This document shows, piece by piece, positions 5,098-62,872 of a DNA stretch of 64,000 nucleotides (the first letter of the stretch is position 1; each line of letters begins with the position of its first letter). The DNA lies in contig NZ_LT671675.1 of NCBI RefSeq assembly GCF_900143685.1, forward strand, positions 1,295,985 to 1,359,984, in the 5' to 3' direction. The notes under the pieces were generated by a model. That model searched no databases. It saw nothing but the letters and a program-made list of their open reading frames with translations, and was not told the origin of the DNA. Position numbers and translations under genes: made by a program. The stretch is from Parolsenella massiliensis (GTDB lineage Bacteria > Actinomycetota > Coriobacteriia > Coriobacteriales > Atopobiaceae).

Positions 5098-5118
5098 GCG
5101 AGAAGCGACCAGGGGGCA

Positions 5119-5143
5119 CCCAAAGGGGTCTGACCCCTTTGGG
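5119..5143. repeat. Dispersed palindromic element (CCCAAAGGGGTC type)
   Basis: CCCAAAGGGGTC and its exact complement are separated by one base. Near-identical palindromes occur at 19944-19970 and, degenerate, at 19897-19923 and 33644-33670, always between genes. Confidence 0.85.
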
Positions 5144-5156
5144 CACTTTGGGCACG

Positions 5157-19812: not shown

Positions 19813-19943
19813 CTAGGCATAGCATGACAACAAACAAAAAGTTAGGCAACCAAAAATATCTGTTTGGTTCGAGAAATTCCGCGAGCGGTCCCCGATGGGC
19901 CCAAAGGGGTCAGAGCCTTTTGGAACCCGAATGACCCCGCCGC

Positions 19944-19970
19944 GCCCAAAGGGGTCTGACCCCTTTGGGC
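19944..19970. repeat. Dispersed palindromic element (CCCAAAGGGGTC type)
   Basis: Perfect 13-bp arms (GCCCAAAGGGGTC and complement) around one base, with a degenerate copy just before it at 19897-19923. It lies 3' of xdhC on the minus strand. Confidence 0.85.
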
Positions 19971-27101: not shown

Positions 27102-27178
27102 GTGCGTCTCCGTTTCGCGGTGGGCAAAGGCATGCCAAGGGAACCCGTCCCCAATGGCACGTTAAATCACTGAGGTTG

Positions 27179-31219: not shown

Positions 31220-31278
31220 GACAACTGGGGACGGGATCGTTCTGCCACTGGTACAGTTTGACCCCGTCCCCAACTGTC
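31220..31278. repeat. Dispersed palindromic element (GGGGACGGG type)
   Basis: Arms of about 19 bp (31220-31238 and 31260-31278, three mismatches), containing GGGGACGGG and CCCGTCCCC. Relatives lie at 32513-32561, 54778-54822 and, partial, 27131-27160 and 56846-56868. Confidence 0.7.
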
Positions 31279-31301
31279 ACCGCAAGCAGATGGAGGCATG
31301 C

Positions 31302-32507: not shown

Positions 32508-32512
32508 CCACA

Positions 32513-32561
32513 TGCCATTGGGGACGGGTTCGTTTGGCATGCCACTGGAACCCGTCCCCTT
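32513..32561. repeat. Dispersed palindromic element (GGGGACGGG type)
   Basis: GGGGACGGGTTC (32520-32531) and its exact complement (32548-32559), extended by TGCCA/TGGCA-like ends. It directly follows the M20 gene and may act as its terminator. Confidence 0.75.
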
Positions 32562-36101: not shown

Positions 36102-36512
36102 GAGCGCGCGTTTGGGAGCAGCCACTTGGCAGTTTTGGCCCTCGAGAGTGCGGCCGCAGGCCCCGCGCGAGGCCAAAAGCCGCCCGAAGCCGCCCCGCGG
36201 CGGCCCGCCGTCACACTCTCGAGCGGCTTTGCGACGGAAAACGAGCCACGAGGGCTCGGCGGCTCCTCTTCCATCGCACTCTCGAGGGCCAAAACTGCCA
36301 CGAACCCGCTCGCGAGCCGTTTGCCGCAAAAACACCAGAGGTTTGTGCGCTCGCAGGCCCTCCGAGCGCCCCCGCGCGGGCGCAAACCGCCCCGCGGCGG
36401 CGCTCGGGCCGGCCCCAGGCGCCCAAACAGCGCCGCGGAGCCAAAAAGTGCGGCGCCGGGAACCCCGACGCCGCACAAACCTCGCTCGGTTTTTGCAGAA
36501 ATCCGCTCGCGA
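36102..36512. repeat. Long structured repeat, copy 1 (411 bp)
   Basis: It aligns over its whole length with 62471-62872 (roughly 80 percent by eye). Perfect 26-bp inverted arms (36127-36152 with 36275-36300) enclose about 120 bases; a terminator-like hairpin sits near the right end. Open frames exist on both strands but are not conserved between copies because of small indels, so it looks non-coding. It abuts the 3' end of the minus-strand dehydrogenase gene. Confidence 0.85.
36443..36476 (-). terminator. Terminator of the 2-hydroxyacid dehydrogenase gene, within the long repeat
   Basis: On the minus strand GTGCGGCG...CGCCGCAC is followed by TTTTT. The equivalent in copy 2 is a perfect stem. 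Confidence 0.75.
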
Positions 36513-54759: not shown

Positions 54760-54777
54760 TGCGCCACCGTAACAGTT

Positions 54778-54822
54778 CGACCCCGTCCCCAAGTGTCACC
54801 GTGACAGCTGGGGGCGGGGTCG
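54778..54822. repeat. Dispersed palindromic element (GACCCCGTCCCC type)
   Basis: 22-bp arms with three mismatches (54778-54799 with 54801-54822), between convergent genes. It may double as a terminator for both. Confidence 0.7.
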
Positions 54823-60953: not shown

Positions 60954-60991
60954 TTGAACTGCGCCCCAAAACTTGGACGCCTGAATAGCGA

Positions 60992-61903
60992 CTAGGCCGT
61001 GAGGGCCTGTCTCCGGAACTCCTCCGGGGTCAGGCCCTTCAATCTTACCTGCCTCCGGCGCGTGTTCCAGTGGACGACGTACGCCTCGAGGTCGCGCTTG
61101 AAGTCCTCGAAGCTGTCCCACTCGCAGCCCCGGTAGAACTCGTCCTTGACGTGGCCGAAGAGCTGCTCGGTGGCGGCGTTGTCGATGCAGTTGCCCTTGC
61201 GGGACATGCTCTGGGCGATGCCAGCCTCCCTGAGCCTCGCCGCGTACCGCTCGTGCTGATACTGCCAGCCCATGTCCGAGTGCATGACCGGCGACGCCCC
61301 CTCCGGGAGCCTCGCCAGGAGCTCATCCAGCATCCTAAGCTGCTGGGTCATGTCGGGCGAGGCCGAGACGTCGCTCGCCACGATCTCCTTGGTGCAGAAG
61401 TCCAGCGTGGGCGCCCAATAGGCCTTGCCGCCGGCCACCTTGAACTCGGTGACGTCCGTGCCGAGCTTCTCCCACGGGGCGCCGGCGGCGAAGTCCCGGG
61501 CGAGCAGGTTCTCGAACGTGCTGCCCACGACTCCCCTGTACGAGCTGTACCTGTGGTAGGCGGTCTCGCGGCGTATGCCGCAGCGGATCCCCATCTCGCG
61601 CATCATCTTGAGCACCGTCTTGTCGGCGATCACGGCGCCCTCCTCCGCCCTGAGGCACATCGCGACCTGGCGGTGGCCGCAGCCGTTGGCGGTGCGGGAG
61701 AAGATCTCGGCCGCCGCCTCCCAGAGCTCCGGTCTCGTCGGCCGCGGCGGGGGCGCCAGGGCGTAGTAGTAGGTCGACCTTGCGAGCCCCGAGCACGCGA
61801 GCAGGTGCCGCAGCGAGTGCCCCTCGGCGCGCAGGGCCGCGACCGCCTCGGCCTTCGCCCCGGTCAGAGCCCGTCCCGCTCGGCCAGGGCGCGCAATTTT
61901 TTT
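60992..61903 (-). CDS. IS3-family transposase OrfB (DDE integrase)
   Basis: About 300 residues of the catalytic part, read after a -1 frameshift from orfA. HTH_21-like region SLRHLLACSGLARSTYYYAL; the DDE triad: Asp in LGTDVTEFKV, Asp in VMHSDMGWQYQHE, and Glu in NAATEQLFGHVKDE. It ends with the family C-terminus YVVHWNTRRRQVRLKGLTPEEFR. The start shown is the slippage point (A7 at 61897-61903); there is no good independent start. Fused to OrfA it makes the OrfAB transposase. Confidence 0.9.
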   Translation of the reverse strand, partial: KKIARPGRAGRALTGAKAEAVAALRAEGHSLRHLLACSGLARSTYYYALAPPPRPTRPELWEAAAEIFSRTANGCGHRQVAMCLRAEEGAVIADKTVLKMMREMGIRCGIRRETAYHRYSSYRGVVGSTFENLLARDFAAGAPWEKLGTDVTEFKVAGGKAYWAPTLDFCTKEIVASDVSASPDMTQQLRMLDELLARLPEGASPVMHSDMGWQYQHERYAARLREAGIAQSMSRKGNCIDNAATEQLFGHVKDEFYRGCEWDSFEDFKRDLEAYVVHWNTRRRQVRLKGLTPEEFRRQALTA

Positions 61904-62355
61904 AGGTAGGCGACCTCGGCCTCGAGCCTGCGGCAGCGTTCCTCGAGCTCCTCCTCGCGGCTCCTCGGCCCGGGCCCCGCGGCCTTCGGCCTGCCCCTGG
62001 GCTTCGGGCGCAGCGCCTCCGCGCCGCCCTCCCGGTAGAGCCTGCACCAGCGGTCGAGGGGAGACTTCGACATGATGCCGAACCTGGCCATCGCCGCCGG
62101 CCTTGGCATCCCGCGGTCGACGACGGCCGAGGCGGCGGCGACCCTCTGCTCGTACGTGTACCTGGCCTGCTTCCCGTCCATGCGCAGCAGCACCTCGCTC
62201 CCGAACGCGCGGTATATCTCCTGCCATTTTCTCACGGCGGCAATCGGGGCCGGGAGGCTGGCGGCGACCGACCTGCAGCCCAGTCCAGAGGAGAAGAGCT
62301 CCGCGGCCCTCCTCCTCACCCCGACGTCGTATCTAAACCTGAGGTCCGCCCGCAT
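61864..62355 (-). CDS. IS3-family transposase OrfA
   Basis: A 163-residue protein with helix-turn-helix regions (RAAELFSSGLGCRSVAASL and AVVDRGMPRPAAMARFGI) and a leucine-zipper-like coiled coil (REEELEERCRRLEAEVAYLKKL) near its end. The message has A7 (61897-61903) just before the stop, in register for the -1 slippage that yields OrfAB. ATG 62355 lies 46 bases inside the right terminal repeat. Confidence 0.88.
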   Translation of the reverse strand: MRADLRFRYDVGVRRRAAELFSSGLGCRSVAASLPAPIAAVRKWQEIYRAFGSEVLLRMDGKQARYTYEQRVAAASAVVDRGMPRPAAMARFGIMSKSPLDRWCRLYREGGAEALRPKPRGRPKAAGPGPRSREEELEERCRRLEAEVAYLKKLRALAERDGL

Positions 62356-62470
62356 GAGAAAGCCTCCCATTTCTCGTGTCCAAGAAATGGGAGGCAGTTC
62401 ACCGGCGGTGGCCCTTTTGTTGTTTTGGGGGCGGTCCTTCGGCGGGTGCAGACATGCCGCGCAAGCAACC

Positions 62471-62872
62471 GACCGCGCGTTCGGGAGCGGCCACTTGGCA
62501 GTTTTAGCCCCCGAGTGTGCGGTCGCGAGACCCGCGCAATGCCAAAAGCCACCCCGCGACGGCCTGCCGCCGCGCTTCCGGCCGGCTTTGCGACGGAAAA
62601 CGGACCATGAGGGCCCGGTGGCCTCGCATCCATCGCACACTCGAGGGCCAAAACTGCCACAAACCCGTTCGCAAGCCGTTTGCCGCAAAAAGCAACAGAG
62701 GTTTGTGCGCTCGTGGGCCCTCCGGGCGCCCCCACGCGGGCGCAAACCGCCCCACGGCGGCGCCCAAACCGGCCCCAGACGCCCAAACAGCGCCGCGGAG
62801 CCAAAAAGTGCGGCGCCGGGAGCCCCGGCGCCGCACAAACCTCGCTCATTTTTTGCAGAAATCCGCTCGCGA
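62471..62872. repeat. Long structured repeat, copy 2 (402 bp)
   Basis: Second copy of the element at 36102-36512, same strand. Inverted arms 62486-62511 and 62634-62659: the inner part reads CGAGTGTGCG here against CGAGAGTGCG in copy 1, with the partner arm changed to match. It abuts the degV 3' end. The 66 bp between it and the IS hold the right half of the PTS terminator. Confidence 0.85.
62803..62836 (-). terminator. Terminator of degV, within the long repeat
   Basis: On the minus strand a perfect 13-bp stem (GTGCGGCGCCGGG and complement) is followed by TTTTT. Confidence 0.85.

Follow-up and report, generated by a model that had tools for sequence, protein, structure and literature searches.

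Inverted 26-bp arm pairs at whole-turn spacing define a family of intergenic, putatively loop-forming units in Parolsenella

The intergenic regions of the Parolsenella massiliensis chromosome contain a family of short units, each of which is a pair of inverted 26-bp arms separated by a whole number of helix turns and enclosing an interior that for the most part varies from unit to unit. Judging from the sequence, each unit is probably a site on double-stranded DNA at which a protein binds and a loop forms, MITE-like in its organization and maintained by selection after insertion. A putative sequence-specific protein would bind both inverted arms, in many units with the assistance of a second site in the middle, either a TTTCCGAACG-N12-CGTTCGGAAA dyad or, possibly, a TTAACGGATA box, and the arms would be drawn together on one helical face, so that a loop of 13 to 16 turns is closed. 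The units themselves would be small intergenic elements that move or duplicate and belong to a single genus, with the arms and their spacing presumably kept by selection once an element is inserted.

The stretch of DNA analyzed here (64,000 nucleotides; hereinafter, the window) includes two copies of a composite repeat, 411 and 402 bp long, which, as described in an earlier note, align end to end on the same strand; the copies are 85% identical (Table 1). The perfect 26-bp inverted repeat previously reported in copy 1 was recovered as well. The description of this sequence as a two-copy repeat is accurate with respect to the length of the repeat, but the copies are parts of a genome-wide family. 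When copy 1 was used as the query against its own genome (2,009,306 bp, one contig), many short matches were found, forming inverted pairs that lie approximately 140–170 bp apart. Reading of the matched loci showed that each composite consists of two units, one with A arms and the other with B arms; the B arm pair within each composite had been overlooked, as had sixteen more A or B pairs outside the window copies. Between copies 1 and 2, the four arms are 93% identical, compared to 86% elsewhere. No inverted pairs other than A and B stand out in the 64-kb window. Other short dispersed repeats in the window (5107-5155, 19888-19970, 27129-27162, 31244-31282, 32510-32543, and 54763-54801) have GGGGACGGGTTC- or GGGGTCTGACCCC-like cores, are partly palindromic, and bear no relation to the A or B arms.

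Table 1. Features of the two composites, in window coordinates
Feature	Position	Strand	Remarks
Composite copy 1 (A unit + B unit)	36102..36512	.	lies between the D-2-hydroxyacid dehydrogenase-like gene (3' end) and copA
D-2-hydroxyacid dehydrogenase-like gene flanking copy 1	ends 36518	minus	
copA flanking copy 1		minus	opposite side from the dehydrogenase-like gene
A left arm, copy 1	36127..36152	+	
A right arm, copy 1	36275..36300	-	spacing 148 bp = 14 turns
B left arm, copy 1	36324..36348	+	consensus arm minus one base
B right arm, copy 1	36472..36497	-	spacing 148 bp = 14 turns
Class C arm relic, degenerate	36212..36236	-	aligns with the intact C arm of the orthologous unit in G059
Terminator-like hairpin of the dehydrogenase-like gene	36448..36476	-	overlaps the inner end of the copy-1 B right arm
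Composite copy 2	62471..62872	.	lies between the DegV-like gene (3' end) and an IS3-family copy
DegV-like gene flanking copy 2	ends 62907	minus	
A left arm, copy 2	62496..62521	+	
A right arm, copy 2	62634..62659	-	spacing 138 bp = 13 turns
B left arm, copy 2	62684..62709	+	
B right arm, copy 2	62832..62857	-	spacing 148 bp = 14 turns
Terminator-like hairpin, copy 2	62808..62836	-	

A search of the genome with 26-bp motifs for the A arm (TGGCAGN7CYTCGAGWGTGCG) and the B arm (TGCAAAAAN7AGGTTTGTGCG) identified 10 A and 10 B pairs, all with a left arm followed by the inverted right arm; one B left arm contains three mismatches, and another, in copy 1, lacks one base. These pairs occupy 14 loci, at approximately 354, 515, 652, 707, 785, 1332 (copy 1), 1358 (copy 2), 1472, 1483, 1506, 1508, 1534, 1552, and 1570 kb, and at 1483 kb, an A pair and a B pair are interleaved, with a 42-bp offset at both ends. 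In the 20 A arms, 15 of the 26 columns are invariant, and the interiors have little in common except for the central dyad. The inverted ends of the units read TG...CA, and each arm includes a 7-bp spacer that differs between the paired arms in 8 of the 10 A pairs and in all 9 intact B pairs. Inspection by eye also detected a further box near GAGAGTTCGC about 20 bp outside many B arms (L146, L147, L151, and L145), so that the true ends of the B units may lie beyond the 26-bp arm.

The start-to-start spacings of the arms in the 20 pairs are 137, 138, 147, 148 (eight pairs), 158, 159, 169 (six pairs), and 170 bp, that is, they fall into classes of 137-138, 147-148, 158-159, and 169-170 bp, corresponding to 13, 14, 15, and 16 turns of B-DNA. 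The best period for these spacings is 10.60 bp (R 0.976; at 10.5 bp, R 0.974), a periodicity that was not reached in any of 200,000 uniform random draws. Inclusion of nine units from the congener G059 gives a best period of 10.55 bp (R 0.93), for a data set that encompasses two species, 14 loci in the P. massiliensis genome, and few independent spacing changes. The register of the A unit relative to the B unit within one composite shows no significant phasing (p 0.27).

A third element of the units is phased as well. The central dyad, TTTCCGAACG-N12-CGTTCGGAAA, with at least 14 of the 20 bases matching, was found in twelve unit readings, in all of which its center lies 5–11 whole turns from both arm centers (R 0.97); these readings are not all independent, as an A and a B unit that interleave have a single dyad in common. 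In a family-wide search, the dyad was confined to the units in both species, and its matches in other genera were at about the level of a reversed-pattern control. The symmetry of the dyad largely extends into the inner N12, and the dyad itself may have a hairpin or cruciform role. In addition, TTAACGGATA occurs in three 148-bp A units, at 81, 81, and 102 bp, a difference of two turns, the second of the 81-bp positions being measured from the other arm, with the box reversed. With whole-turn spacing, both arms of a pair face the same side of the helix, as is characteristic of looping or synapsis pairs; two sites with a third one between them, all separated by whole turns, are what loop-forming complexes require, which suggests that the units form DNA loops.

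Spacing that is counted in DNA turns argues against the proposal, made in the earlier note, that the repeat is a large structured RNA. This reading, or that of a transcribed hairpin, draws on the long inverted arms, on the strong hairpins in some of the interiors, and on the terminator-like hairpins of the two window copies, and nevertheless appears extremely unlikely. In the test for covariation, the left arms match their own right arms at the variable columns no better than they match shuffled partners (A, p 0.14; B, p 0.77; A inner box, p 0.84). The A-to-T change in an arm of copy 2, matched in the opposite arm, is indeed present, but the column in question (column 21, W in the motif) pairs in 5 of the 10 A pairs compared to 5.4 after shuffling, so that the apparent compensation is a matter of chance and provides no evidence of pairing. 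A scan of the window against Rfam gave no match, and folding of the interiors (mean z -1.7) revealed no common fold. With no covariation beyond chance and with two units interleaved, a structured RNA is not supported. As for the suggestion of a terminator element, the minus-strand hairpins are real in both copies but are a property of the duplicated composite, and most of the other units lack them.

Among the 140 genomes of the family that were searched, paired arms were found only in P. massiliensis and in G059, the single congener among them; the 138 other relatives contain scattered single matches only. In sets from which records very close to the P. massiliensis genome may be left out, there were no exact B pairs in genome contigs or viral contigs, and no A pairs or single A, B, or C arms in viral contigs; a single B arm had five matches in genome contigs, in unrelated organisms and at about the number expected by chance. 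A search of the open literature found nothing relevant on such repeats in Coriobacteria or on inverted repeats spaced by whole turns in the intergenic regions of bacteria.

Recognizable arms are retained in G059 at 9 of the 14 loci, and comparison of the two species shows how the units change. In the orthologue of copy 1, located between the same flanking genes (L138), the B spacing is 158 bp compared to 148 bp in P. massiliensis, and the A spacing is 169 bp compared to 148 bp. The spacing of the 1570-kb unit is 137 bp in P. massiliensis and 159 bp in G059, and within P. massiliensis, the A spacing is 138 bp in copy 2 and 148 bp in copy 1. Thus, wherever the spacings of orthologous or duplicated units differ, they differ by whole turns. 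The arm sequence itself also changes. In G059, there is also a third class of arm, C (TGTCACAAAACCAATCNTGTGTGCG); its spacings are 147, 147, 147, 157, and 168 bp, and family-wide it was detected in this genome only, apart from one relic in P. massiliensis. The C units of G059 occupy loci that hold A units in P. massiliensis; the 1483-kb elements align end to end between the species, with A arms opposite C arms or A/C hybrid arms, and degenerate C relics persist in P. massiliensis. Together, the alignment of A with C arms and these relics indicate that the arm sequence changed in place. Several arms in G059 are degenerate or partnerless, with a single recognizable one left at 652 kb. The counterpart of the 1506–1508-kb region in G059 is a C unit adjacent to a B arm, without the gene (L151 3137-4402, G000:C1), encoding a protein that has a cell-wall anchor motif, which lies between the A and B units in P. 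massiliensis.

The remaining five loci, at 354, 515, 707, 785, and 1358 kb, lack arms in G059, a pattern that, with two species compared, could equally reflect acquisition by one lineage or loss from the other; the distance from flank to flank is about 40 bp in G059 compared to 229 bp in P. massiliensis at 707 kb, and 98 compared to 300 bp at 785 kb. This presence and absence between close relatives, together with the general organization of the units, namely, short, non-coding, multicopy elements with terminal inverted repeats, bears out much of the earlier suggestion of a MITE-like element: the units are small, dispersed, and intergenic, have inverted TG...CA ends, and include duplicated composites. 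The support is partial. No target duplications were seen by eye beside the 26-bp arms, although the true borders may lie further out; and in the P. massiliensis genome, no autonomous transposon was found to share the arms, every A or B arm of full strength there being part of a short pair and none flanking a gene-bearing element. Two nearly identical IS3-family copies (window 60954-62401 and L144 1285-2732; 99.9% identity over 1448 bp) adjoin the A units of copy 2 and of the 354-kb locus, with the left arm 95 and 49 bp away, respectively.

Under a simpler scenario, the units are plain MITEs, the ends of which were mobilized by an unseen transposase that could synapse and transpose only whole-turn lengths, followed by neutral decay. 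The genus-restricted distribution, the missing loci, the duplicated composites, the position of the B unit at 1472 kb, on one side of the A/C unit in P. massiliensis and on the other side in G059, and the helical-twist precedents cited in the literature (PMC3464196) are all in line with this scenario, which we nonetheless regard as rather unlikely. The arms are near perfect despite the divergence of the interiors, neutral decay predicts neither the in-phase spacing changes in orthologues nor the in-place change of arm class, and simple insertion cannot produce interleaved pairs. Retention of the arms and spacing, apparently in place, thus favors a function after insertion, whereas the missing loci and duplicated composites favor mobility, and the two can both hold. 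Within the preferred interpretation of the units as loop-forming sites maintained by selection, the loop may either provide the synapsis step of excision or transposition or persist as a structure with an architectural or regulatory role.

Alternatively, the units may be viewed as host sites for chromosome architecture or gene control, at which a dedicated protein would hold permanent loops unconnected with DNA mobility. The loci common to both species and the phased central site are compatible with such a role, and so is the distribution along the chromosome: the units are confined to 354-785 kb and 1332-1570 kb (G000:C1), the chromosome being free of them over its first 354 kb, over its last 439 kb, and between 785 and 1332 kb (gaps of 793 and 548 kb), a clustering with p 0.001 that was noticed post hoc. 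However, 5 of the 14 loci are not shared and the arm sequence has changed, which is fast for a core chromosomal system, and the orientation of the genes around the loci is mixed. We view a purely architectural or regulatory role as possible but doubtful. Where the neighboring genes were checked, they proved to be ordinary ones (alcohol dehydrogenase, FtsX-like permease, prepilin peptidase, and queuosine synthesis, among others).

Inverted arms with a 7-bp spacer in each could also delimit invertible, phase-variable segments between recombinase sites, and both genomes encode tyrosine recombinases. This possibility appears very improbable given that the two inverted sites lack an identical crossover sequence, the spacers being unlike in the great majority of pairs, and that the interiors alignable across the two species share the same orientation. 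When the tyrosine recombinases of both genomes were listed as candidates for the arm-binding protein, no link was found. Two of those in P. massiliensis, L186 (G000:C1:1250861) and L188 (G000:C1:1106105), are 56% identical to each other and have no close match among the G059 tyrosine recombinases compared.

Several known systems share some of these features. The Correia repeat enclosed elements of Neisseria are MITEs that are short, dispersed, and intergenic, lack coding capacity, and have inverted ends approximately 26 bp long. The units resemble them in all these respects but differ from these and other bacterial MITEs in that the interiors are unshared, the arms are spaced by whole turns, the arm class changes in place, several units overlap or interleave, and no transposase or target duplication is known for them. 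The attC sites of integrons carry R boxes, RYYYAAC and GTTRRRY, at their ends. Like attC, the units consist of two inverted sites, each with two boxes around an unpaired spacer, and a variable center; unlike attC, the arm consensus lacks these boxes, there is no cassette array, and the units are helix-phased, which is needless for a folded single strand. With REP/BIME sequences, the units share the organization of paired, extragenic, genus-restricted inverted repeats, but the unit arms are singly non-palindromic and few in number, with spacing quantized over 13–16 turns.

The closest published natural case of size periodicity is that of the internal eliminated sequences of Paramecium, the lengths of which show a period of about 10 bp that has been explained by an end-to-end loop in a transpososome-like complex and discussed alongside bacterial helical-twist experiments (PMC3464196). 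These sequences differ from the units in that they are eukaryotic, are excised by a domesticated transposase from both coding and non-coding DNA, and have a weak end consensus; the units have a phased central site in addition to arms that are long and specific. In the looping operator pairs of lac and ara and in the Hin enhancer complex, the two sites are required to be on the same helix face (PMC3464196), as would be the two putative protein sites of the units; those systems are single loci beside regulated promoters, whereas the units comprise about 20 inverted pairs distributed chromosome-wide, in varied gene contexts.

The family, which is known here from two related species only, could represent an undescribed bacterial loop system, with a dedicated protein, paired arms and a central site, loops of 13–16 turns, and a recognition sequence that changes together with its sites between sister species; we put this forward tentatively, as one of the less probable outcomes. 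At the level of the sequence, nature has apparently performed a helical-twist experiment, in which only whole-turn spacings were kept and orthologues shifted by whole turns, so that whole-turn arm spacing can serve as a signature of a DNA-loop complex that is readable from sequence. The family further provides a case of an arm sequence altered at many sites between two congeners, and the 26-bp arm would be usable as bait, making the putative binding protein findable.
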